NCBI GenBank assembly: GCA_016462625.1
Contig: JAEMSV010000077.1
Span: 1 to 17,756, forward strand
Direction: 5' to 3'
Source: Solirubrobacteraceae bacterium
GTDB lineage: Bacteria; Actinomycetota; Thermoleophilia; Solirubrobacterales; Solirubrobacteraceae
DNA: 17,756 bases
Shown here: positions 27-17,756 of the stretch, piece after piece
Numbering within the stretch: the stretch's first letter is position 1
How the letters are laid out: every line of letters starts with the position of its first letter
Program-made: the position numbers and the translations under genes
The notes under the pieces: model-generated
What the model was told of the DNA's origin: nothing
Databases searched by the model: none
The model's input: the letters and a program-made list of their open reading frames with translations, nothing else

Positions 27-887
27 TTAGGACTGCACCTTCTCCTCGGCCGGGGACTGCTGCGCGTCCTCGCTCTTGGAGTCGGCAGCCTTCGGCGCCT
101 TGCGCTCGACCCGCTCGCACGAGCCGTTCGGGTTCTCGGCCGTCGCGTCGGTGATGACGTCGACGGCGTCCAGCCAGGCGCGGTCCTTGCCGTCGCCGCA
201 GGTGATGCGGTCGACCTCGCCATCGCGGGTGCGGAACTGGTCGTTGCCGGCGCCGCCATCGAGTGCGTCACCGATCTGATCGGTCTCGCCGGCCGGGCCG
301 GGCGTCACGTCAACGCGGGCGAGCGCCCACAGCTTGTCGTCGCCGTTGCCGCCGGACGAGGTGTCCTGACCCGCGTTCGCGTAGATGACGTCGTTGCCCT
401 CGCCGCCGCTCTGGACGTCGTCGCCGGTGCCGCCCGACATCCGGTCGTTGCCCAGCTCGCCGTCGGACGTGTCGTTCCCGCTGCCGCCGTGGATGCGGTC
501 ACGCGAGTCGCCGCCCTTCAGCGTGTCGTTGCCGGCGGCGCCGTAGATGCGGTCGAACGAGGTGCGGTCGCCGGTGTTGTTCGCATCGCCGACGACCGTG
601 TCGTCACCGGGACCGCCGTTGAGGAGGTCGTTGCCCTGCACGCCGGAGATGGTGTCGTTCCCGCCCATGCCGAACACGCGGTCGTTGCCTTGACCGCCGT
701 TGAGCGTGTCGTCGCCGGCACGCCCGAAGATGCGGTCGTTGCCGTCGTTGCCGTTGATGAGGTCCACGGCGTTCGTGCCGCGGAGCCGCTCGTTGCCGGG
801 GCCGCCCTCGATCGTCGCGGCGAACGCGACGCTCGGAACGAGCGCCAGGGCCGCGATGGCGGCGGTGGTTGTGCGCAGATGCTTCAC
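27..887 (-). CDS. Secreted RTX-like calcium-binding repeat protein
   Basis: A 286-residue protein with a Sec signal peptide (about residues 1-23, ending VAFAA). Residues 28-185 carry roughly a dozen glycine/aspartate nonapeptides of the GGxGxDxxx type (for example GGQGNDRVFG), which in the RTX family wind into a calcium-binding parallel beta roll. The repeats are followed by a capping segment with RDGEVDRITCG and SCERVER (Cys230, Cys257), then a polar, charged tail from about residue 263. No protease, lipase or adhesin domain is visible, so the role is probably structural or surface-associated. The start is GTG, chosen because a strong AGGAGGAG lies four bases upstream and the signal peptide begins there. 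It is divergent from a shorter paralogue at 1030 that shares the cap, with boxed repeats between them. The repeat family is clear; the function is unknown. Confidence 0.88.
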   Translation of the reverse strand: MKHLRTTTAAIAALALVPSVAFAATIEGGPGNERLRGTNAVDLINGNDGNDRIFGRAGDDTLNGGQGNDRVFGMGGNDTISGVQGNDLLNGGPGDDTVVGDANNTGDRTSFDRIYGAAGNDTLKGGDSRDRIHGGSGNDTSDGELGNDRMSGGTGDDVQSGGEGNDVIYANAGQDTSSGGNGDDKLWALARVDVTPGPAGETDQIGDALDGGAGNDQFRTRDGEVDRITCGDGKDRAWLDAVDVITDATAENPNGSCERVERKAPKAADSKSEDAQQSPAEEKVQS

Positions 888-1029: not shown

Positions 1030-1500
1030 ATGCTGCGTGCCATGTCCCGTCGTGTGATCGCGCTGCTCCTTGTCCTCGTGGTGCTGCCCGCCGGGCCGGC
1101 GCTCGCCGAAGCGATGCGCGGGACGAAGGGCGACGACACCATCGACGGCACCGCACGCGCCGATCGCATCGACGGCCTGCGCGGCAACGACCAGCTCCAC
1201 GGTCGCGGCGGCAACGACCGGGTCAACGGCGGCGCGGGGAACGATCTCCTCTCGGGCGACGCCGGCAACGACCGCCTCAACGGCGGCCCCGGCGACGACA
1301 CCCTGCTCGGCGGCGCGGGCGGCGACATCCTCAACGGCGGCCCCGGCGCGGACACGATCATCGGCGGCAACGGCCGCGACGTCATCCGTGCCCGCGACGG
1401 CGTCGCCGACCGCATCACGTGCGGCGCCAAGCGCGACCGGGTCACCGCAGACGCGATCGACGACGTCGCCCGCGACTGCGAGTCTGTCTCGCGTGGCTGA
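1030..1500 (+). CDS. Small secreted RTX-like calcium-binding repeat protein
   Basis: A 156-residue paralogue of the divergent gene ending at 27. It has a signal peptide (hydrophobic residues 9-26, ending ALAEA), about eight GGxGxDxxx repeats (residues 32-118, for example GGAGNDLLSG), and the same C-terminal cap: ARDGVADRITCG followed by RDCESVSRG, with Cys131 and Cys150. Calcium binding is expected for the family; no enzymatic domain is present. An in-frame ATG at 1042 (MSRRVIALL) gives an equally good signal peptide, and neither start has a clear Shine-Dalgarno sequence, so the first four residues are uncertain. The end overlaps the start of the response regulator gene by eight bases, suggesting one transcript and translational coupling. 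Confidence 0.85.
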   Translation: MLRAMSRRVIALLLVLVVLPAGPALAEAMRGTKGDDTIDGTARADRIDGLRGNDQLHGRGGNDRVNGGAGNDLLSGDAGNDRLNGGPGDDTLLGGAGGDILNGGPGADTIIGGNGRDVIRARDGVADRITCGAKRDRVTADAIDDVARDCESVSRG

Positions 1501-4877: not shown

Positions 4878-4969
4878 TGTCCTGATTTCCGCACAACTCG
4901 CGCTCTGGCTACACTGTGCCGATAACAGCACAAACGGTCACCAGGGCGTGATGTATGGATATCAGCACA
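4878..4969. promoter_or_regulatory. Three HipB-type operators in a 37-bp phased array
   Basis: Three 18-bp sites share the form TGTnn-N8-GCACA: 4878-4895 (TGTCC-N8-GCACA), 4915-4932 (TGTGC-N8-GCACA, perfect dyad) and 4952-4969 (TGTAT-N8-GCACA). Starts are exactly 37 bases apart. All three spacers carry GAT at positions 2-4 and C at position 7. The E. coli HipB operator is known to be TATCC-N8-GGATA, so the half-site length and 8-bp gap match that family while the bases differ. The third site covers the hipB start codon at 4955. This predicts cooperative autorepression by HipB or HipBA. The sites are seen directly; the protein bound is inferred. Confidence 0.72.
4887..4915 (+). promoter_or_regulatory. 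Weak candidate promoter for hipBA
   Basis: A -10-like TACACT at 4910-4915 lies 17 bases after a poor -35-like TTCCGC at 4887-4892. It overlaps the first and touches the second operator-like site, as expected for a repressed promoter. The hexamer match is only moderate, so this is tentative. Confidence 0.3.
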
Positions 4970-5218
4970 CGTGAATCAGATCAGGAGTGGACCGTCGGCT
5001 CGTCGGCCGACCTCGGTCGTGCCATCGCGGGCGTGCGCGCGGTCCACGGTCTGACCCAGGAGGAGCTCGCCGAGCGCACCGGCATTCAGCGCTCGTACCT
5101 GGCGAAGCTCGAGGCCGGCGCATCCGTCCTGCTGCTGGAACGTGCGCTCCGCGCGCTGCGGCGCATGGGAGCGACGGTCACGGTGACGCTCCCGGCAGAC
5201 CGCGAGCCCCGTGACTGA
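4955..5218 (+). CDS. hipB: HipB-like antitoxin, XRE-family DNA-binding protein
   Basis: An 87-residue protein, close to E. coli HipB (88). A Cro/C1-type helix-turn-helix occupies about residues 20-63: LGRAIAGVRAVHGLTQEEL, then AERTGIQRSYLAKLEAG. The segment ASVLLLERALRALRRMG and a short beta-like VTVTLP end the protein. In HipBA systems this protein binds HipA, neutralises it and represses the operon. The ATG at 4955 is preceded by AGGG eight bases upstream. Another ATG at 4951 is out of frame and ends after seven codons. The end overlaps the hipA start by eight bases, the classic coupled antitoxin-toxin order. Three operator-like sites lie upstream, one covering the start codon. Confidence is high for family and partner, moderate for true toxin-antitoxin behaviour. 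Confidence 0.88.
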   Translation: MDISTRESDQEWTVGSSADLGRAIAGVRAVHGLTQEELAERTGIQRSYLAKLEAGASVLLLERALRALRRMGATVTVTLPADREPRD

Positions 5219-6422
5219 GCAGCTCAGCGTCTGGCTCGGCGGTGCAGAGGTCGCCCGGCTCCAGCGCCGCGGCGCGTACGACGTCCGTTGCCGGTACAGC
5301 GAGGACGCCGTCCGCGCGTGGCCGCAGAACAGCCCGGTCATCTCCTGCTCGCTGCCCCTCGGCGCGCGCGCCCTCCCGGCCAATCCGTACTGCCGGGGGC
5401 TCCTGCCGGAGGGCCAGGCCCTCCAGGTCCTCGCCCGGGAAGCGAACCTCCCGGTCACCGCCACGTTCGAGCTGCTGGCGCGTTACGGCCGCGACATCGC
5501 CGGCGCGCTCGTCATCGCCGCTGAGCCGCCAGACCCCGCCCAGTTCGGCGTCGAGCCATACGACGAGGACGACCTCGTGGCCGCGGTCCGTGACCTCGAA
5601 GCCCATCCCCTCGGCGCCCACGACGACAGCGAGCTGTCCCTGGCCGGCCTCCAGGACAAGCTGCTCCTCGTCGACCTCGGAGACGGCGGCTGGGGACGGC
5701 CGCTGCACGGTCAGCCTTCGACCCACATCCTCAAGGTCGACGACGCGCGCTACCCCGGGCTCGTCGTCGCCGAGGCCCAGTGCCTGGCCGCCGCCCGGGC
5801 GGCAGGCCTGACGACGATCGACGCCGACATCCTGATGCTGGAGGACGTCCCGTGCCTGGTGGTCTCGCGCTTTGACCGCACCTCTGACGGCACCGAGATC
5901 CAGCGCATCCACCAGGAAGATCTGTGCCAGGCACTCGGCATCGACCACGAGGCGAACCGCGGCCGCGCGAAGTACGAGCGGTCGGGCGGGCCGACGTTCC
6001 GCCAGGCGGCCGAGCTCCTCGACCGCTACGCCCGCGATCCTGCCGCCGAGCTCGACCAGCTCGTCCGGGCGGCCGTCTTCACCGTGCTGATCGGCAACGC
6101 GGATGCGCACGGGAAGAACCTCGCGCTGCTGCACCCCACGCCGCAGACGGTGACGCTCGCGCCGCTCTACGACACCGTCCCGACCATGCTGTGGCCGAAG
6201 CTGCGCCGCGAAGCCGCGATGTCGATCGGCGGTTCGCTCGACCTCACTGCGATCACGCTCGACGACATCCTCCGGGAGGCCCGAAGCTGGGCCCATCCTG
6301 CCGACCGGGCCGAGGCGGTCGCGCGTGAGACCATCGAGCGCGTGACCGGGTCCCTCGGTACCGCCATCGTCGATCCACGGCTGGTCGAACTCGTCGAGCA
6401 GCAGGCGGCGCGGTTGCGATGA
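5211..6422 (+). CDS. hipA: HipA-like serine/threonine kinase toxin
   Basis: A 403-residue HipA-family kinase starting at GTG. The N-terminal subdomain (about 1-110) has the GLLPEG motif and LLARYGRDIAGALVI. The kinase core matches E. coli HipA by position: Ser143 in ELSLAGLQDK (autophosphorylation Ser150 there), Lys175 in HILKVDD (Lys181), Asp298 in IGNADAHGKN (catalytic Asp309) and Asp321 in PLYDTV (metal-binding Asp332). All are intact, so activity is expected. E. coli HipA phosphorylates glutamyl-tRNA synthetase, halting translation and promoting dormancy; the target here is unknown. It is slightly shorter than E. coli HipA (440). It overlaps hipB by eight bases, and its stop overlaps the Nudix start by four (ATGA). 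Confidence 0.92.
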   Translation: MTEQLSVWLGGAEVARLQRRGAYDVRCRYSEDAVRAWPQNSPVISCSLPLGARALPANPYCRGLLPEGQALQVLAREANLPVTATFELLARYGRDIAGALVIAAEPPDPAQFGVEPYDEDDLVAAVRDLEAHPLGAHDDSELSLAGLQDKLLLVDLGDGGWGRPLHGQPSTHILKVDDARYPGLVVAEAQCLAAARAAGLTTIDADILMLEDVPCLVVSRFDRTSDGTEIQRIHQEDLCQALGIDHEANRGRAKYERSGGPTFRQAAELLDRYARDPAAELDQLVRAAVFTVLIGNADAHGKNLALLHPTPQTVTLAPLYDTVPTMLWPKLRREAAMSIGGSLDLTAITLDDILREARSWAHPADRAEAVARETIERVTGSLGTAIVDPRLVELVEQQAARLR

Positions 6423-6937: not shown

Positions 6938-7852
6938 ATGCCCTCAGATAAGGCAACAGCCACTCGAAGCCCCGCCACGGGAACCCCGACGCCCACGCTG
7001 ATCGACGAGCCGCTCCCCCGCGAGGTCGCCGACACCCTCAACGGGTTCGCGCTCCTCGCCGGCGGCGCGAACGTGATCATGCAGCTGTCCCAGCTGCCCA
7101 TCGGCCACGGGGTCGCGCTGAGCAAGGTCGAGAGCGGGCGCGTCGACCTCCACCCCTTCAAGCGCCTGCGCACGACCGCGTCGTTCCTCGCGATCTCGAT
7201 GACGGGCTCGGTCGAGGACCGCATCGGCCTGCGCCGCGAGATCGGGCGCGCGCACGTCCAGGTCCGATCCGAGCCCGGGGACGCCGTGCAGTACTCGGCC
7301 TTCGATTCCGAGCTCCAGCTGTGGGTGGCCTCGTGCCTGTACTACGGGATCGAGGACGTCTTCCGCCGGATGTACGGACGGTGGCCCACCCGCGAGGAGC
7401 GGGTCCGGATGCTGCACTACGGCCGCCGCCTCGGCACGACGTTGCAGGTGACCGACGAGATGTGGCACACCACACCCGAGGCGTTCGACAGGTACTGGCA
7501 CGCCGGCCTCGCGAACGCGCGGATGGACGACCTCACCCGCGGTCACCTGCAGGACATCGCCACCCAGCGGTTCCTCTTCACCCGGCTCCTGCGCTTCGGC
7601 TGGCCGGTCGAGCTCATGGCCAAGCTGCTCGCCATCCCCGCCTCGTTCATGACGATCGGGTTCCTGCCCGCCCCGCTGCAGGAGGAGCTCGGGCTCCCCT
7701 GGAGCACGAAGGCGCAGCGCCGGCACGACCGCATCTTCAACACGCTCGCCTGGGGCGCCGCGCGGGTCCCGCTGCGCCTGCGCATGCTCCCCGTCACGTT
7801 CAACGCGTGGGAGACGCGGCGGCGCCTGCGCAAGGGCCGGCCGGTGGTCTGA
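6938..7852 (+). CDS. MpaB/DUF2236-family protein lacking the usual WVHA histidine
   Basis: A 304-residue member of the oxygenase MpaB family (DUF2236, related to latex-clearing protein Lcp). Family landmarks are GRAHVQVR (about 103-110), the central FDSELQLWVASCLYYG (about 122-137), and a helical C-terminal half ending PLRLRMLPVTFNAWETRRRL. In most members the central motif reads WVHA, whose histidine corresponds to the heme ligand of Lcp. Here it is WVAS, so heme binding may differ or be lost; the paralogue at 15207 keeps it. The N-terminal 20 residues are Ser/Thr/Pro-rich and low complexity, with no signal peptide. It starts six bases after the Nudix gene, but a candidate promoter lies just upstream. 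The substrate is unknown. The stop is four bases from the convergent Usp-like stop. Confidence 0.85.
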   Translation: MPSDKATATRSPATGTPTPTLIDEPLPREVADTLNGFALLAGGANVIMQLSQLPIGHGVALSKVESGRVDLHPFKRLRTTASFLAISMTGSVEDRIGLRREIGRAHVQVRSEPGDAVQYSAFDSELQLWVASCLYYGIEDVFRRMYGRWPTREERVRMLHYGRRLGTTLQVTDEMWHTTPEAFDRYWHAGLANARMDDLTRGHLQDIATQRFLFTRLLRFGWPVELMAKLLAIPASFMTIGFLPAPLQEELGLPWSTKAQRRHDRIFNTLAWGAARVPLRLRMLPVTFNAWETRRRLRKGRPVV

Positions 7853-7856
7853 CGCG

Positions 7857-8336
7857 CTAGGCGCTTGCGCGCGGAGCGTCCGGCGCGGGGATCCGCCGGC
7901 CTGCGGCGGTCACGGTCGTGACGGGCAGGCCCAGGCCGGCGATCTTGCTCGGCAGGCTCGTGCGCAGCCAGCGCGAGACGCGGCGCGGCAGCGTCGAGAG
8001 GATGACCTCGTCGAACGGGCCGTGGCGGTTGATCGCGTCGGCGACGGCGCTGAGCGGGTTCGGGTCGCCGACGAGGCCAGTGACGGGCGCGCCGCACGCG
8101 TCCTCGAGCAGCGGGAGGGCGAGGTCGAGGATGACCTGCGCCTCGTTCTCGTTCTCCACGTCGCTCTCCTCCATCCGGCGGAGCGCCAGCGGCACGTTCG
8201 GAACGAGGAGGGTGAATTCGCAGGGTGCTTCCTCGGCGCGCAGCCTGATGGCGTCGAGCAGCACCGGCGTAGCGGCGGTGCGGTGCGCGACGATGAGCAC
8301 ACGGGCGGGAGCGAGTCCGTTCACAACAGTGTGCAT
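7857..8336 (-). CDS. Universal stress protein-like alpha/beta protein
   Basis: A 159-residue soluble protein with an alternating beta-alpha pattern: strand ARVLIVAHR at 11-19, strand FTLLVPNV at 41-48, and FDEVILSTLPRRVSRWLRTSLPSKIAGLGLPVTTV at 108-142 (shown here as key segments FDEVILSTLP and LGLPVTTV). This resembles small Usp-like proteins of actinobacteria. I see no clear Gly-x2-Gly-x9-Gly ATP-binding signature, so nucleotide binding is uncertain. The start is ATG at 8336; the frame is open to 8480, but that extension crosses the dyad-rich regulatory region and is not protein-like. A dyad (ACAACA and TGTTGT) covers the start codon. It diverges from the TetR operon with 131 bases between, so the two could share control. 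Confidence 0.7.
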   Translation of the reverse strand: MHTVVNGLAPARVLIVAHRTAATPVLLDAIRLRAEEAPCEFTLLVPNVPLALRRMEESDVENENEAQVILDLALPLLEDACGAPVTGLVGDPNPLSAVADAINRHGPFDEVILSTLPRRVSRWLRTSLPSKIAGLGLPVTTVTAAGRRIPAPDAPRASA

Positions 8337-8341
8337 GTTGT
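8323..8341. promoter_or_regulatory. Dyad over the Usp-like start codon
   Basis: ACAACA at 8323-8328 and TGTTGT at 8336-8341 form a perfect 6-bp inverted repeat with a 7-base gap. It covers the ATG of the minus-strand gene. It may be an operator or an RNA structure; no regulator is assigned. Confidence 0.4.
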
Positions 8342-8363
8342 CACAAAGACCAGGACCAAAACA

Positions 8364-8421: not shown

Positions 8422-8451
8422 TTACCCACATAGAAATTTCTACCGGAGTAA
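8422..8451. promoter_or_regulatory. TetR-type operator, copy 1, upstream of the beta-oxidation operon
   Basis: A 30-bp imperfect palindrome: arms TTAC (8422-8425) and GTAA (8448-8451) around a perfect 12-bp palindrome TAGAAATTTCTA (8431-8442). It reads the same on both strands at 22 of 30 positions. A -10-like TAACAT at 8449-8454 overlaps it, so binding would block transcription of the TetR operon starting at 8468. A second copy with 24 of 30 identical bases is at 17344-17373. The adjacent TetR is the natural candidate to bind, which is inference. Confidence 0.75.
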
Positions 8452-8467
8452 CATCCGTCGCCGCCCG

Positions 8468-9121
8468 ATGGATGCCGCACCCTCCCCCCGGACCCGCCTC
8501 CCGCGCGCCGAGCGCATGGAGCAGACGCTCGCCGTGGCCCACGCGCTCTTCGCCGAGCGCGGGTTCACCGCGGTGACGATGGACGACGTCGCCGCGGCGG
8601 TCGGCGTCACCAAGCCGCTGCTCTACAACTACTTCGGCAACAAGGAGCGACTGTACCTCGCGTGCCTGGCGCAGAGCGCCGACGCGCTGGTCTCCACCGT
8701 CGTCGACGCCGTCGCCGCCGCTGACCGCCCGCCGGACGCGCTGGGCGACGGCATCCGCGCCTTCTTCAGCTTCGTCGAGCAGGACCGGTCCTCGTGGGCG
8801 GTCCTCTTCGACGAGACGCTGCCGGCCAACGGCGAGATCGCCGACCGGGTCGCGCAGTACCGCGAGCAGATCCTCGACGCCGTGGCCAGCGCCTCGCTGC
8901 AGCAGTTCCCTGCGGAGACGCGGGAGCAGGTGCGCGTCGAGACCGAGGCGCTCTCCACCGCGATCCTCGGCGCCGTCGAGGCGCTGATGCGGTGGTGGCT
9001 GCGCACCGAGGCGATCACCGCGCACTACGCGGCCGAGCTGCTCATCGCGACGATCGAGCCGGGTCTCCGGCAGGTCTCCGAACTCCCAGACACCAGACCA
9101 GCAGGAGATTCCACTCCATGA
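8468..9121 (+). CDS. TetR-family repressor of the thiolase operon (FadR-like role)
   Basis: A 217-residue TetR protein. The N-terminal helix-turn-helix lies at about residues 17-63: AHALFAERGFTAVTMDDVAAA, then VGVTKPLLYNYFGNKERLYL (family recognition motif YxYFxxKExL). The rest is an all-helical ligand and dimer domain with no readable ligand. The ATG at 8468 gives a normal-length protein. Its stop overlaps the thiolase ATG (ATGA), so it heads the operon and is made with the enzymes it probably controls. TetR regulators beside fatty-acid degradation genes usually respond to acyl-CoA; that is family knowledge, not visible here. The palindrome at 8422-8451 overlaps its promoter, predicting autorepression, and its copy at 17344 suggests control of the distant acyl-CoA dehydrogenase. 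Confidence 0.92.
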   Translation: MDAAPSPRTRLPRAERMEQTLAVAHALFAERGFTAVTMDDVAAAVGVTKPLLYNYFGNKERLYLACLAQSADALVSTVVDAVAAADRPPDALGDGIRAFFSFVEQDRSSWAVLFDETLPANGEIADRVAQYREQILDAVASASLQQFPAETREQVRVETEALSTAILGAVEALMRWWLRTEAITAHYAAELLIATIEPGLRQVSELPDTRPAGDSTP

Positions 9122-10410: not shown

Positions 10411-11807
10411 GCCAGGATCTCTACAGCCAGATCGTCAACTCGGCACCGGGCGGCTTCGTCGCCAAGCGCGTCGGGCTGCCGCAGCCGACCGCGCTGGACC
10501 GGTATTCACCGGGTCAGCCGGTCGTCGACGGCGAGGTGCTCGTCGGCGGCGCGCCCGGCGGTCGCCTGTTCGGCGCGATCGCCCAGACGCTGAAGGACGC
10601 CGACGTCAGCGTCGCGACGAGCCTCGACGGCGACGTGCGCAACGCCGCCGCCGACGCGGGCCTCGACGCCTCGGTCTTCAACCCCGAGGCCGCCGGCGGC
10701 CGCCGCTTCAAGGGCCTGGTCTTCGACGCGACCGGCATCAAGGACTCCACGGAGCTCGTCGAGCTGCAGAAGTTCTTCCACCCCGTCGCGAGCAAGGTCA
10801 AGAGCAGCGGCCGCGTGGTCGTCCTCGGCACCCCGCCCGACGACACCAGCTCGCCGCGCGAGTACACGGCGCAGCGCGCGCTGGAGGGCTTCACCCGCTC
10901 GTTCGGGAAGGAGGTCGGCCGCGGCGCGACCGTGCAGCTGATCTACGTGGCGCCGAAGGCCGAGAACCTCATCGGCTCGTCGCTGCGGTTCTTCCTCTCG
11001 CCGAAGTCCGCGTACGTGTCCGGCCAGGTCGCGTACGTGTCGAAGGGCGAGGCGGTCCCGGCCGACATCGACTGGGAGCTGCCGCTGAAGGGCAAGCGCG
11101 CGCTGGTCACCGGCGCGTCGCGCGGCATCGGCGCGGCGATCATCGAGACGCTCGCCCGCGACGGTGCGGACGTCGTCGGCCTCGACGTGCCGCAGCTCGG
11201 CGAGGATCTGAAGAAGGTCACCGACGCCCTCGGCGGCGAGGCCATCGAGCTCGACATCACCGCCGAGGACGCGCCGGCCACGCTGGCGAAGTACTTCAAG
11301 GACGGCGTGGACATCGTCGTCCACAACGCGGGCGTCACGCGCGACCGCACGCTGGCGAAGATGCCCGAGGACCGCTGGGCGGGCCTCATGGAGATCAACC
11401 TCTCCAGCGAGGAGCGCATCAACGACGCGCTGCTCGCCGCGGGTGCGATCAACAAGGGCGGGCGCATCATCGGCGTCTCCTCGATGGCCGGCATCGCGGG
11501 CAACCGCGGCCAGACGAACTACGCGACGTCGAAGGCCGGCGTCATCGGCATGGTGAAGTCCATGGCCCCGGTCCTCGCGAAGGACGGGATCACGATCAAC
11601 GCGGTCGCGCCGGGCTTCATCGAGACGCAGATGACCGCCGCGATGCCGATCGCCGTGCGCGAGCCCGGCCGCCGCCTGAACTCGATGAACCAGGGCGGCC
11701 TGCCGGTCGACGTCGCGGAGACGATCGCCTGGTACGCCTCGGCGGGCTCGGGCGGCCTGACCGGCAACGTGGTCCGGGTCTGCGGCCAGATGATGCTGGG
11801 GGCCTGA
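10407..11807 (+). CDS. fabG4: FabG4-type long 3-oxoacyl reductase (SDR)
   Basis: A 466-residue short-chain dehydrogenase, far longer than housekeeping FabG (about 245) and like the high-molecular-weight FabG4 group (454 in M. tuberculosis). The first ~220 residues are a flavodoxin-like Rossmann domain without a usual nucleotide motif, as known for FabG4. The C-terminal ketoreductase has the cofactor loop VTGASRGIG (about 236-244), HNAGVTRD, catalytic serines in GVSSMAG, and Tyr372/Lys376 in YATSKAG. FabG4 prefers NADH and reduces 3-oxoacyl-CoA reversibly, so here it would act as the 3-hydroxyacyl-CoA dehydrogenase step. The GTG start overlaps the thiolase stop (GTGA); the stop overlaps the MaoC ATG by one base. 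The symbol reflects family and synteny, not proven orthology. Confidence 0.9.
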   Translation: MSQDLYSQIVNSAPGGFVAKRVGLPQPTALDRYSPGQPVVDGEVLVGGAPGGRLFGAIAQTLKDADVSVATSLDGDVRNAAADAGLDASVFNPEAAGGRRFKGLVFDATGIKDSTELVELQKFFHPVASKVKSSGRVVVLGTPPDDTSSPREYTAQRALEGFTRSFGKEVGRGATVQLIYVAPKAENLIGSSLRFFLSPKSAYVSGQVAYVSKGEAVPADIDWELPLKGKRALVTGASRGIGAAIIETLARDGADVVGLDVPQLGEDLKKVTDALGGEAIELDITAEDAPATLAKYFKDGVDIVVHNAGVTRDRTLAKMPEDRWAGLMEINLSSEERINDALLAAGAINKGGRIIGVSSMAGIAGNRGQTNYATSKAGVIGMVKSMAPVLAKDGITINAVAPGFIETQMTAAMPIAVREPGRRLNSMNQGGLPVDVAETIAWYASAGSGGLTGNVVRVCGQMMLGA

Positions 11808-12697
11808 TGGCGACCCGTGAGCTCAGCGGCCCGCCCGCCATCCTGCCGCTCTACGCCAAGGCCGCGCTTCCGATGATCCCGGGGGCGTCGAAGCTCCCGT
11901 TCGTCCCGGGCGGCGGCAAGGACGTGCCCGACCTCGAGCTCGTCTTTCCCGAGGTCACGTTCGACACCGCCAAGCTGGCGGCGTACAACCGCGTCTGCGG
12001 CTTCACGCTGCGCGACGCCGTGCCGTCGACGTACATCCACGTCCTCGCGTTCCCGCTGCACATGGCGCTGATGAGCGAGCCGGACTTCCCGTTCGGCGCG
12101 GTCGGCCTCGTGCACATCAACAACACGATCACCCAGCACCGGCCCGTTGGCGTGGGCGAGACGATCTCGCTGAAGCTGAGCGCGAGCAAGCTCAAGCCGC
12201 ACCCCAAGGGCAAGGCGTTCGACATGCTCGCCCAGGCCAAGGTCGGGCGCACGATCGTGTGGGAGGGCGTCTCGACGTACCTGCGGATCGGCAAGGGTGA
12301 CCCGGAGGCGAAAGCTCCGAAGCGTGAGGAGCTCCCGGACCCCGCGGTCAGCGCGACGTGGAAGCTCCAGAGCGGGCTCGGCCGCAAGTACGCGAGCGCG
12401 TCGGGCGACCGCAACCCGATCCACCTGTACGACCTGACCGCCAAGCCGCTCGGGTTCAACAAGGCGATCATCCACGGCATGTGGACGAAGGCCCGGTGCC
12501 TCGCGGCGCTCGAGGCCGTGCTGCCCGAGGCGTACAAGGTCGACGTGCAGTTCCGCAAGCCGATCCCGCTGCCCTCGAAGGTCACGTTCGGCGAGGACAT
12601 CTCGCCCAACGGGATCCGCTTTGCGGTGAAGAACGCGAAGAAGGGCACGCCCCACCTCGACGGCACGGTCGTCGAGGTGGCGCGCAAGAAGGGCTGA
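11807..12697 (+). CDS. MaoC-family enoyl/3-hydroxyacyl-thioester dehydratase (HtdX-like)
   Basis: A 296-residue double hot-dog protein. The C-terminal hot dog (about 185-296) has the hydratase-2 motif YASASGDRNPIHL, with catalytic Asp201 and His206, and GFNKAIIHGMW (216-226). The N-terminal half (about 45-160) is a degenerate hot dog without the motif, as in two-domain R-hydratases and HtdX. The reaction is reversible hydration of trans-2-enoyl-CoA to (R)-3-hydroxyacyl-CoA. The ATG overlaps the FabG4-like stop by one base (TGATG). The three enzymes thus supply hydration, dehydrogenation and thiolysis; only acyl-CoA dehydrogenation is missing from the operon. R-stereochemistry is expected for MaoC enzymes and would need a matching R-specific reductase in the FabG4-like partner. 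Confidence 0.9.
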   Translation: MATRELSGPPAILPLYAKAALPMIPGASKLPFVPGGGKDVPDLELVFPEVTFDTAKLAAYNRVCGFTLRDAVPSTYIHVLAFPLHMALMSEPDFPFGAVGLVHINNTITQHRPVGVGETISLKLSASKLKPHPKGKAFDMLAQAKVGRTIVWEGVSTYLRIGKGDPEAKAPKREELPDPAVSATWKLQSGLGRKYASASGDRNPIHLYDLTAKPLGFNKAIIHGMWTKARCLAALEAVLPEAYKVDVQFRKPIPLPSKVTFGEDISPNGIRFAVKNAKKGTPHLDGTVVEVARKKG

Positions 12698-14515: not shown

Positions 14516-15154
14516 TCAGCGGACGCCGGCGAGCGGCACGAACACGACGCGGGCGATCCTGCGCGCCTCGTCGTCCCCGACCGGCTCGGGACGCAGACCG
14601 GGCAGCAGAAGGTAGGCCAGTGCGAGCCTGACGATCGCATCGGCCTGGACTTCCGGGTCGCCCGGCACCAGCTCCTCGGTGCGCTGCCCCTCCGCGAGGA
14701 AGGCGGCCACGAAGCGCACCGCGATCTGCTGCGGGGACGGGTCCCCCGCGGTCATCGCGGCGGCGACCGCCGCGGTTCGGGCGGGATCGGTGCCGCGCAG
14801 GAACGGGCGATCGCCGAGCCGGAGGAGGGAGGCGAACGTCTCCGCGATGCGCTCGGCCGGGTCGCGGACGCGGGAGAAGATGTCGATGACCTCGTCGAGG
14901 AACCGGCGGAGCTCGCCGACCAGCGCCCGCTCGAGGAGCTCGTCCTTGCCGCCGAATCGCCGGAACAGCGTCGCGCGGCCCACCCCGCTGCGCGCCGCGA
15001 TGTCGTCCATGGTCGCGCGCTCGGTCCCACGCTCGGCGAGCACCTCGAGCGCCGCGTCGAACACGCGATGCTCGGTGTCGTCGGCCGCGGGCCCGGCAGG
15101 GCGGCCGAGCGCCCGCCCGAGGAGCTCGTCGAGCGGGGAAGCCGGACGGGTCAT
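14516..15154 (-). CDS. TetR-family repressor divergent from the DUF2236-lipase operon
   Basis: A 212-residue TetR protein. The helix-turn-helix is at about residues 28-74: FDAALEVLAERGTERATMDD, IAARSGVGRATLFRRFGGKD. The rest is the helical ligand domain. The ATG at 15154 lies six bases after TAGGAT (minus strand, 15166-15161), a -10-like element, and no Shine-Dalgarno sequence is visible, so the mRNA is probably leaderless. A 36-bp dyad at 15167-15202 fills the space to the divergent gene at 15207. The expected behaviour is repression of itself and of the DUF2236-lipase pair, with an unknown, perhaps lipid-derived, inducer. Confidence 0.9.
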   Translation of the reverse strand: MTRPASPLDELLGRALGRPAGPAADDTEHRVFDAALEVLAERGTERATMDDIAARSGVGRATLFRRFGGKDELLERALVGELRRFLDEVIDIFSRVRDPAERIAETFASLLRLGDRPFLRGTDPARTAAVAAAMTAGDPSPQQIAVRFVAAFLAEGQRTEELVPGDPEVQADAIVRLALAYLLLPGLRPEPVGDDEARRIARVVFVPLAGVR

Positions 15155-15206: not shown

Positions 15207-16103
15207 ATGCCCGCGATCGACTCTTCCGCGGCGGCCGTCCGGGAACTCACCGCCTGGAACCCCGCAGCCCGCGAGCGCCCGCTCGCCGCGCCCCTCGGCC
15301 CCGACTCCGTCACCTGGAAGGTCTTTGGTGACCTGACCTACGTCATGGGGGCCGCGCGCCGCCTGCTGATGGACGTCGCTCACCCCACGATCGCCGACGG
15401 TGTCCGCGAGTTCTCGGTGTTCCAGACCGATCCCTACGGTCGCGGCGAGCGCACGCTGGCGATGATCCTCGGCGTGATCTACGGCCAGGAGCACGCGCTG
15501 GCCACCGCGCAGCGTTTGCGCGAAGGCCACCAGCCGTTCCGCGGCGAGCGCGCCGACGGCAGCCGCTGGAGCGCGCTGGAGCCTGAGGCCTACCACTGGG
15601 TCCACGCCAGCATCATCGACGGCGTCTGGACCCAGCAGCAGGCGCTCGGCCGCGGCTGGCGCGCCGGCGAGGTCGAGCAGTTCTACGACGAGATGCACGA
15701 GGTCGGGCGCATGTACGGCGTGCGCGACCGCGACATGCCGCCGACCTGGGCGAAGTTCCGCGTCTGGTTCGACGAGTTCGTCGCCGACCGGCTCGAGCGC
15801 TCGGACATGACCGACGCCGTCCTGCAGATCACGGCGCGCCCGACCCCGCCGCCCGTCCCCGTCCTCGGCTGGAAGCCCGTGTGGGCCGTGCCGGGACGCA
15901 CCGCCGGCCGGCTCAACATGCTGCTCACCGGCGGACTGCTGCCGCCGCTCCTGCGCGAGCGCCTCGGCGTGCACTGGACCCCGTGGCACCAGCGGGCGTT
16001 CGACGCGAACGCCGTGGTCTCCCGCGCGATGGTCCCGCGGCTCCCCGACCGGATCCGCCTGCTGCCTGACACCTACACCGCCATGAAGGAGGCGACGCGC
16101 TGA
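15207..16103 (+). CDS. MpaB/DUF2236-family oxygenase with intact WVHA motif
   Basis: A 298-residue member of the MpaB/Lcp-catalytic-like family. It shows the full pattern: TWKVFGDLTYVMGAARRLLM, AHPTIADGV (about 58-66), FQTDPYGRGERT (72-83), GHQPFRGER (108-116), and YHWVHASIIDGV (129-140) with His133 at the position of the Lcp heme ligand. Heme-dependent oxidative cleavage is known for Lcp and proposed for others; the substrate is unknown here. No signal peptide is seen. The ATG at 15207 has no Shine-Dalgarno sequence (a run of C precedes it), consistent with a leaderless mRNA from inside the operator. Its stop overlaps the lipase ATG by one base, so the two are one transcription unit. Confidence 0.88.
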   Translation: MPAIDSSAAAVRELTAWNPAARERPLAAPLGPDSVTWKVFGDLTYVMGAARRLLMDVAHPTIADGVREFSVFQTDPYGRGERTLAMILGVIYGQEHALATAQRLREGHQPFRGERADGSRWSALEPEAYHWVHASIIDGVWTQQQALGRGWRAGEVEQFYDEMHEVGRMYGVRDRDMPPTWAKFRVWFDEFVADRLERSDMTDAVLQITARPTPPPVPVLGWKPVWAVPGRTAGRLNMLLTGGLLPPLLRERLGVHWTPWHQRAFDANAVVSRAMVPRLPDRIRLLPDTYTAMKEATR

Positions 16104-16993
16104 TGCGCCGCTTCGTCGTGACCGCCGCCACCCTGGCTGCCGTGCTCATCCCTGCCACGCAGGCCCACGCCGCCTACCCCGTGGAGACCAGCTTCGCGCG
16201 GGCGCTGACGGCCGGCCTGAAGAACCCCGGCGCGATGCCGCCCGGCACGAACGACTGGGACTGCAAGCTCACCGCCGAGCATCCGCGCCCGATCATCCTG
16301 GTGCACGCCACCGCCCTCCCGCCGAGCGTGAACTGGATGGGCCTCGGCCCGTTCCTCGCCAACGAGGGCTTCTGCGTCTTCACCCCGGTCTACGGCCGAG
16401 TGCACGGATGGCCCGGCATGGGCCGCTACGAGGACAGCGCCGCGGACCTCGGCCGCTCCGTCGACCGTGTCCTGGCGAACTACCCCGGCCTCGACAAGGT
16501 CGACCTCGCCGGCCACAGCCAGGGCGGCGCCATGCCCCGGTGGTACATCAAGTTCCTCGGGGGCACCGAGACGGTCCACCGGCAGATCAGCATCGCCGGC
16601 CCGAACAAGGACGGCACCGACTTCCTCGGGATCATGAAGCTGATCAAGCGCTGGAAGGCGCTCGGGCTGGTCCGGTTCGTCGGGGTCGCCTTCGAGCAGC
16701 AGGTCTACGGCTCGGCGCTGATGCGGACGCTCAACGCGGGAGACCGCACGCCCGGCGACGTCAAGTACGACATGATCTCGTCGAGGTACGACGAGATCCT
16801 GACGCCGTACACCAACGGGTTCCTGGACGACGCGAACAGCAACTGGACCGTCCAGACCGGCTGCAGCATCGACTTCTCCGACCACACGCAGATCGTCTAC
16901 TCGCGGCGGGTCATGACGAAGGTGGCGAACCTGCTGGACGACGGCAACCGCAAGCTGCCCTGCCGGCTGGAGATCCCGCTGGGAGTGCGCTGA
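16103..16993 (+). CDS. Secreted triacylglycerol lipase / esterase (alpha/beta hydrolase)
   Basis: A 296-residue exported hydrolase. The signal peptide covers residues 1-24 (MRRFVVTAATLAAVLIPATQ, then AHAA). The mature part has the oxyanion strand PIILVHATA (62-70, in place of the common VHG), nucleophile Ser139 in AGHSQGG, and likely Asp230 (SSRYDEILTPY) and His261 (FSDHTQIVYSR) completing the triad. The order and spacing match bacterial class I/II secreted lipases, also common in actinobacteria. Four cysteines (54, 91, 254, 287) could make two disulfides outside the cell. It overlaps the DUF2236 stop by one base, so it is presumably co-regulated through the TetR operator at 15167. Fatty acids it releases could feed the beta-oxidation genes nearby, which is inference. 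Confidence 0.9.
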   Translation: MRRFVVTAATLAAVLIPATQAHAAYPVETSFARALTAGLKNPGAMPPGTNDWDCKLTAEHPRPIILVHATALPPSVNWMGLGPFLANEGFCVFTPVYGRVHGWPGMGRYEDSAADLGRSVDRVLANYPGLDKVDLAGHSQGGAMPRWYIKFLGGTETVHRQISIAGPNKDGTDFLGIMKLIKRWKALGLVRFVGVAFEQQVYGSALMRTLNAGDRTPGDVKYDMISSRYDEILTPYTNGFLDDANSNWTVQTGCSIDFSDHTQIVYSRRVMTKVANLLDDGNRKLPCRLEIPLGVR

Positions 16994-16999
16994 CGGCTC

Positions 17000-17353
17000 T
17001 CAGTGGCGCAGGCCCACCCGGCGGGTGGCCGACGCGGTGTTCCCCGCCGCGTCCCGGGTCCGCAGCTGCAGCACCGCGGTCGCGGTCTTCTTACGCGCCC
17101 ACGTGCGGCGCACCACACGCAGCGCGCGTCGCGACACCGCGATCCGGACCGTCACGGTCCGCCCCGCGGGCAGCTTCGCGACCACCTTCGTGAGCTTCGG
17201 ATCGGTGCCGGGCACCGCGATGTGCCCGGTGACGGTGAGCGTCGCCGCCTCGTTCGACCGGACCTTCAAGAGGATCCGGTTCTTCTGTCGCAGGATCCGC
17301 TGCCGGGAGGCCGCGGTCAGCGTGAACTGAGAGACAGGCCCGGTTACTTGCAT
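17000..17353 (-). CDS. Orphan beta-sandwich domain ORF, possibly a truncated remnant
   Basis: A 117-residue ORF resembling the C-terminal beta domain of long secreted proteins of this bacterial group: RQRILRQKNRILLKVRSNEA, TLTVTGHI, LPAGRTVTVRIAVSRRALR, then TRDAAGNTASATRRVGLRH. Such domains normally end much larger exported proteins, yet no signal peptide, repeat region or longer in-frame extension exists upstream. The only ATG (17353) lies inside the operator-like palindrome at 17344-17373, and there is no Shine-Dalgarno sequence. It may be a remnant of a deleted gene, or a small leaderless protein. It is convergent with the lipase (six bases apart). The protein-like character is clear; its status as an expressed gene is not. 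Confidence 0.5.
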   Translation of the reverse strand: MQVTGPVSQFTLTAASRQRILRQKNRILLKVRSNEAATLTVTGHIAVPGTDPKLTKVVAKLPAGRTVTVRIAVSRRALRVVRRTWARKKTATAVLQLRTRDAAGNTASATRRVGLRH

Positions 17354-17373
17354 AGAAATTTATACCTGGGTAA
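17344..17373. promoter_or_regulatory. TetR-type operator, copy 2, upstream of the acyl-CoA dehydrogenase
   Basis: A 30-bp element matching 8422-8451 at 24 of 30 positions: TTAC arm, central CATAGAAATTT, ACC and GTAA arm in identical spacing. It contains TTGCAT (17348-17353) and, 17 bases later, TAATGT (17371-17376), a plausible -35/-10 pair for the gene at 17410. Binding would cover the promoter. The likely binder is the TetR encoded at 8468. Confidence 0.72.
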
Positions 17374-17396
17374 TGTCTCGGGAGTTCCCACTTCCC

Positions 17397-17401
17397 AGGA
17401 G
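17397..17401 (+). promoter_or_regulatory. Ribosome binding site of the acyl-CoA dehydrogenase gene
   Basis: AGGAG lies eight bases before GTG at 17410. It supports that GTG as the start, with a leader of roughly 25-30 bases from the predicted promoter. Confidence 0.65.
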
Positions 17402-17409
17402 ACCGAGAC

Positions 17410-17756
17410 GTGACCACCGCCGACAAGAGCATGGGACTGGCACTGCGCGCCGTGCGCACCCTCGCCGAGTCCGATCTGCTCGATCGCGTGGGCCTGCGCA
17501 AGCAGGTCGAGCGCGCGCTGTACGCCGGGAGCCGGGATGGCTTCCGGGCCGCAGGCGCCGCCGGCCGCACCTTCGCCGCGGCCCAGAAGCTGGGCCGCCC
17601 GGCCCGTCAGAAGAAGGCCAAGCCGCGCGAGCTCTTCGACGTGACGCCCGACGACGATCAGCAGATGCTCATCGAGGTCACCAAGCAGTTCGCCGCCGAG
17701 GCCATCCGCCCCGCCGCGCAGGCCGCCGACCACGACACCGCGACCCCGAAGGAGCT
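17410..17756 (+). CDS. Acyl-CoA dehydrogenase, N-terminal part (cut by window end)
   Basis: The first 115 residues of a gene running off the window. An N-terminal extension of about 75 residues (MTTADKSMGLALRAVRTLAE, later AGAAGRTFAAAQKLGRPARQ) precedes LFDVTPDDDQQMLIEVTKQF and AAEAIRPAAQAADHD, the typical first helix of acyl-CoA dehydrogenases. The catalytic Glu and FAD-binding regions would lie beyond the end, so identity rests on this segment only. The reaction would be FAD-dependent oxidation of acyl-CoA to trans-2-enoyl-CoA, the step absent from the operon at 8468-12697. A GTG start with AGGAG eight bases upstream is well placed. Its promoter carries the same palindrome as that operon. 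Confidence 0.78.
   Translation, partial: MTTADKSMGLALRAVRTLAESDLLDRVGLRKQVERALYAGSRDGFRAAGAAGRTFAAAQKLGRPARQKKAKPRELFDVTPDDDQQMLIEVTKQFAAEAIRPAAQAADHDTATPKE

Follow-up and report, generated by a model that had tools for sequence, protein, structure and literature searches.

A 30-base-pair palindrome stands directly before the gene for a TetR-family regulator in a 17,756-nucleotide stretch of DNA from a Solirubrobacteraceae bacterium (contig JAEMSV010000077.1; the whole stretch is called the window here), and a second copy stands before an acyl-CoA dehydrogenase gene near the window's end. We estimate a probability of roughly 0.8 that the palindrome functions as the operator for the adjacent FasR-like TetR repressor, an autoregulated, promoter-occluding site that would serve both transcription units and from which acyl-CoA would probably release the protein. 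In the proposed mechanism, the FasR-like protein encoded from position 8468 would bind the palindrome directly before its own gene and cover a -10 box on the right arm of the site, shutting off the tetR-thiolase-reductase-maoC operon; the second operator copy would impose the same repression on the separated acyl-CoA dehydrogenase unit, and fatty acyl-CoA would probably relieve both. The length of 30 bp and the retention of single half-sites in some genomes suggest that two dimers may bind, one to each half of the operator. The arrangement offers a readable operator and a two-unit regulon for an order in which the literature searched, by lineage, TetR and fatty-acid or regulon terms, yielded no study of such a regulator among the best-ranked matches, and it presents a pathway gene that lies apart from its operon yet has its own copy of the operator.

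Operator 1 occupies positions 8422 to 8451 on the plus strand (TTACCCACATAGAAATTTCTACCGGAGTAA) and is palindromic at 11 of 15 pairs, and operator 2, likewise 30 bp, occupies positions 17344 to 17373 on the same strand (TTACTTGCATAGAAATTTATACCTGGGTAA) and is palindromic at 9 of 15. Aligned without gaps, they are identical at 24 of 30 bases, so that both the positions and the degree of likeness given in an earlier note, made from the sequence alone, were reproduced. That note also held a chance resemblance to be unlikely. Consistent with this, the next-best 30-mer for either operator on both strands of the window, the operators themselves excluded, matches at 16 of 30 bases, and TTAC-N22-GTAA has two matches in the window versus none in 200 dinucleotide-preserving shuffles.

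Conservation of the operator with the TetR gene

The motif TTAC-N5-TA-N-AAATTT-N-TA-N5-GTAA was searched, with up to one mismatch, in 232 genomes of the order Solirubrobacterales. It was found in 41 of them, at one place each except in G001, G002 and G003, genomes of the window's clade, which have two. TetR orthologues, defined as matches at E up to 1e-40, were present in 48 genomes among the matches listed, and motif and orthologue occurred together in 40 genomes (40/41 motif genomes, 40/48 listed TetR genomes; Fisher 1e-35 for the table 40/1/8/183, a value that ignores relatedness). In the 41st motif genome, G174 (the record of locus L033), the TetR match lies in two pieces directly behind the site. 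Judged by this distribution, with 40 of the 41 motif genomes among the 48 that have the orthologue, the palindrome is not a chance motif.

The earlier note had proposed scanning genomes for the motif, and the pattern search finds it confined rather than scattered, at one or two places in each of the 41 genomes. Allowing three mismatches added no place in six genomes, and the reversed pattern had no match there either. In a phylum-wide sample of 396 genomes the motif occurred in G001 only, and the reversed pattern matched two other genomes, once per strand. No wider regulon appeared at three mismatches in these six and ten further genomes (mostly those without a full motif), at a threshold that weaker sites may escape. 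The suggestion of a TetR regulon with a readable operator is supported by most of these checks as regards the operator, which is kept with the TetR gene; the regulon seen is tiny, and no wide fatty-acid regulon was seen. In these genome sequences it appears to be a switch private to a single operon and the dehydrogenase split off from that operon. That TetR proteins control fatty-acid breakdown is itself well known; the operator is unusually private and constant.

When the class was searched with the TetR protein, 33 of 399 genomes scored at least 189 bits and all other matches at most 125 bits; in the order, three partial matches at contig ends score 172-179 bits. Sixty loci were found with this protein, of which 27 (L034-L060; at most 51% identity over short stretches) were left out as non-orthologous. 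The remaining 33 orthologous loci (53-91% identity in the best segment) come, with few exceptions, from records that carry the name of Solirubrobacterales or one of its families or that are unplaced Actinomycetota bins. At 27 of these 33 orthologous loci the motif is present with one mismatch at most. Of the other six, four (L005, L014, L015 and L017) keep just the right half, the sequence of L009 starts within the site, and L032 reads N there.

Anatomy of the site and its promoter

We compared 45 distinct oriented sites, 36 before TetR, five before acyl-CoA oxidase and four before dehydrogenase genes; fas genes were not searched for. Each had at most two mismatches to the pattern and a recognised gene no more than 400 bases downstream, and L130, a minus-strand site matched to FabG4, was left out. 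Because the sites were picked with at most two mismatches, constancy inside the pattern is partly built in. Two positions outside the pattern are also conserved: G27 is constant (45/45 sites), and T33, three bases past the palindrome, is present in 40 of 45, the mirror position having the matching A in 17. T33 completes a TAANNT sequence, one version of the TANNNT -10 box, which lies across the right arm in 40 of 45 sites. In Mycobacterium tuberculosis, TANNNT is a -10 box centred 7-12 bp before the transcription start (PMC3898074). The candidate -10 boxes in the window are TAACAT at 8449 to 8454, on the right arm of operator 1, and TAATGT at 17371 to 17376, overlapping operator 2 in the position found in the 45-site comparison.

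Of the two halves, the right one varies less, holds the -10 box, and is what remains in five of the six genomes with one half-site. On these grounds the block might in the main serve a special sigma factor as an unusual core promoter, its symmetry being incidental, which we consider improbable. The left arm is likewise conserved, although no promoter role is evident for it, and in G075 it is the only arm left; the symmetric pair 12/19 covaries (T-A 29, G-C 7, G-A 8, C-A 1); and the right half plus the -10 box, searched at one mismatch in 10 genomes, gave 17 matches, every one at a known operator, whereas one would expect a sigma-factor promoter to turn up elsewhere too.

An in-frame start codon lies 10-14 bases past the operator at 38 of 41 TetR or oxidase sites, the exceptions being L136, L124 and the window, and with this spacing a leaderless or nearly leaderless TetR message is likely. 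The dehydrogenase start lies 37-38 bases past its operator, behind AGGAG, which stands at 17397 to 17401 in the window as a Shine-Dalgarno-like element and likewise precedes the dehydrogenase in L001, L002 and L138. A leader hairpin around this Shine-Dalgarno element, seen in L001, was rejected as a general feature (z -0.5 in the window, -2.2 in L001, +0.7 in L002 and +1.6 in L138).

The repressor interpretation has several observations against it. FasR itself is described as an activator (PMC7382501), so activation is conceivable here, and as the closest solved relative it lends some weight to the view that the TetR protein, like FasR at the fas promoter, activates from the site, or that it has a dual role. 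We regard this as unlikely, though the least so of the alternatives considered, since TAANNT is overlapped by the site in 40 of 45 cases, and in 38 of 41 the site's end and the start codon are 10-14 bases apart; a protein sitting there would presumably obstruct polymerase. The window itself departs from that spacing, its first in-frame TetR start lying 17 bases past the operator. Genome counts ignore relatedness, and the sites had been picked with a pattern. Furthermore, of the 48 genomes with TetR, eight have no motif within one mismatch: G073 carries a site with two mismatches, G046, G048, G050, G052 and G197 keep the right half alone, and G075 keeps the left half alone, so that six of the 48 have a half only; in G045 the position of the site reads N. 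Finally, neither co-occurrence nor neighbourhood is proof of which protein binds. Another regulator might read the site, for example the window's second TetR, encoded at 14516-15154, which carries a TetR_N domain. This is very improbable, as the motif tracks the 8468 TetR gene and mostly stands directly before it; the second TetR was not searched in other genomes.

In the TetR orthologues with half-operators (loci L106, L110-L112, L133 and L134) the site is reduced to one half, and in the four half-operator TetR proteins aligned (L005, L014, L015 and L017) the DNA-binding helix is nearly unchanged.

A CRP-like box, GTG-N8-CAC, occurs within 40 nucleotides upstream of the operator at 17 of 45 sites (L004, L007, L008, L010-L012, L016, L018-L021, L023-L025, L031, L098 and L136), versus a shuffled mean of 0.4 and maximum of 4, and in 16 of the 17 it starts at -15 to -13, the first base of the operator being 1. 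The window has a similar box, found by eye, at 8330-8345 (TGTGCATGTTGTCACA), some 75 bases further up and near the start of a divergent frame.

The genes behind the operators and the split of the dehydrogenase

The regulator gene (8468 to 9121, plus strand) encodes a 217-residue protein that belongs to the TetR family, with a TetR_N DNA-binding domain and an all-helical ligand domain, by its matches to PF00440 (62.6 bits) and PF21943 (49.8 bits), and its structure model (pLDDT 90) has TetR folds as top matches. It scores 104.4 bits against the NCBIfam FasR equivalog model, below the cut-off of 330, and 31.1 bits against the Bacillus-type FadR model (NF053878), below the cut-off of 200. The operator lies directly before the regulator gene and is conserved with it, the arrangement of an autoregulated operon, an oxidase gene intervening in the Solirubrobacter loci. 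Downstream on the same strand follow a thiolase of the acetyl-CoA C-acetyltransferase family NF006740 (9118 to 10410; 734.8 bits, scored in a longer open frame, cut-off 539) with Pfam thiolase domains, a 3-oxoacyl reductase of NF006110 (10407 to 11807; 643.7 bits, cut-off 410), and a MaoC-type dehydratase/hydratase (11807 to 12697; PF01575). We take NF006740 and NF006110 to be models that cover FadA2 and FabG4; the name FabG4-type for the 10407 reductase is that of the earlier note.

Behind operator 2, a frame with a GTG start at 17410 runs for 115 codons to the window end (17410 to 17756, plus strand) and is labelled here as the acyl-CoA dehydrogenase FadE1. This 115-codon piece alone has no Pfam match. 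Its full-length counterpart in L001 (Svornostia abyssi; L001:15360-16673) has 438 residues and the acyl-CoA dehydrogenase domains PF02771, PF02770 and PF00441. A second acyl-CoA dehydrogenase gene lies behind the first in L001 (16697 onward) and in L002 (19630-20646), where it has such domains; the Svornostia abyssi record interrupts its frame, which in L002 stays open over the part read. The genes behind the two operators had been proposed to make a full round of beta-oxidation, which is right by enzyme class. MaoC and FabG4-type enzymes belong to the (R)-3-hydroxyacyl route, and for this reason the direction of flux is left unsettled.

At 17 of 25 loci read past MaoC, the dehydrogenase adjoins MaoC and is part of a single run of genes that includes TetR, thiolase and reductase. 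It stands apart with its own operator in L001, L002 and L003 (that of L003 via L138), as in the window. In five Solirubrobacter loci an acyl-CoA oxidase gene is found in front instead, between the site and tetR; in L022 the oxidase and TetR genes are immediate neighbours, the oxidase first, and in G085 the oxidase and TetR lie on different contigs. A thiolase tree of 38 rows places the window, L001, L002 and L003 in one clade (100/100) next to Solirubrobacter (87/81). L003 is a metagenome bin labelled Bifidobacterium breve, yet at this locus the tree makes it a close Svornostia relative. Compared with one another, the four second sites share 28-30 of 30 bases; compared with the four first sites, they share 23-27 of 30. 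This is what a copy that predates the divergence of the four genomes would show. We infer that one operator once probably served one operon ending in the dehydrogenase, and that in the window's clade the dehydrogenase split off carrying its own operator, so that the two units would stay together; the tree is rooted at its midpoint only, and the direction of this change is accordingly no more than probable.

Related regulators and a possible box code

The best sequence and fold match to the 8468 protein is FasR of mycobacteria, the regulator of fas-acpS, and the two proteins have in common an RLPR-ER start and a GV-KP-LY stretch. The 25-bp FasR DNA (PMC7382501) likewise has TAC...GTA outer arms and contains ACGTAGAA, which is also present in operator L030. 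FasR has an acyl-CoA tunnel and is released by long-chain acyl-CoA, and the fold of the 8468 protein agrees with that of FasR. FasR differs in being described as an activator of synthesis on three inverted repeats (PMC7382501) and in its other spacing, whereas here a breakdown-type operon has the site over its -10 box. Compared with the half-site matrix, the FasR oligonucleotide gave p 0.15 without gaps, which is not significant, and p 0.006 with a free spacer; because only the free-spacer comparison is significant, kinship of this oligonucleotide and the window's operators is kept as a lead.

In function, a close parallel is FadR of Sulfolobus acidocaldarius (PMC6449355), a TetR-family protein that represses a beta-oxidation cluster from very few genomic sites, one of them at its own gene, is released by acyl-CoA, and binds as one or two dimers. 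It is archaeal, has 17% identity in a fold alignment with 6en8, and has four sites within a 30-kb cluster (PMC6449355). The Bacillus-type TetR protein FadR shares the fold and the role in fatty-acid degradation. For the regulator name FdmR, the papers listed include none devoted to it. Mycobacteria also have a conserved dehydratase gene, htdX, behind fabG4 (PMC6008564), and their fabG4 (Rv0242c) and fadA2 (Rv0243) are neighbours by locus number whose products are lipid-inclusion proteins (PMC10699116). The portions of these two papers available mention no adjacent TetR gene, whereas the window's set lies behind its own regulator.

TAC/GTA boxes may form a modular code for FasR-like TetR proteins, with specificity set by the spacer and one dimer held by each box pair, a tentative proposal that we think somewhat doubtful as it stands; one dimer per box pair would explain the half-operators. 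The box pattern was noticed by eye before being counted. In the window's order-wide family the spacer is N4, with TAC-N4-RTA at positions 2-11 in 37 of 45 sites and TAY-N4-GTA at 20-29 in 33 of 45. Twelve lower-scoring paralogues were chosen, the eleven best-scoring below the gap between 189 and 125 bits and one further down the list. TAC-N5-GTA occurs in tandem before seven of them (17 copies; 500 shuffles gave 0.36 on average and 3 at most), and the other TAC-Nn-GTA spacers (n 2-11) before the 12 were within the shuffle range. The paralogue L142 has two N6 boxes, its site being a 30-bp TTAC...GTAA palindrome; taken by itself, the N6 count of 2 does not exceed that of the shuffles (maximum 3). 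One N6 box, TAC-N6-GTA, opens the FasR oligonucleotide (PMC7382501). If such a grammar holds for this new FasR-like branch, operators could be predicted from it.

Elsewhere in the window, MPAB/Lcp-type oxygenase-like genes flank the operon at 6938-7852 and 15207-16103; the latter is divergent from the TetR gene at 14516-15154 and is followed by a lipase-like gene (16103-16993). A HipA-type gene at 4955-6422 has a small helix-turn-helix-like frame ahead of it, as in HipBA pairs (the frame itself was not searched). GGxGxD-like repeats were noticed by eye at 27-887 (minus strand) and about 1041-1500 (plus strand).
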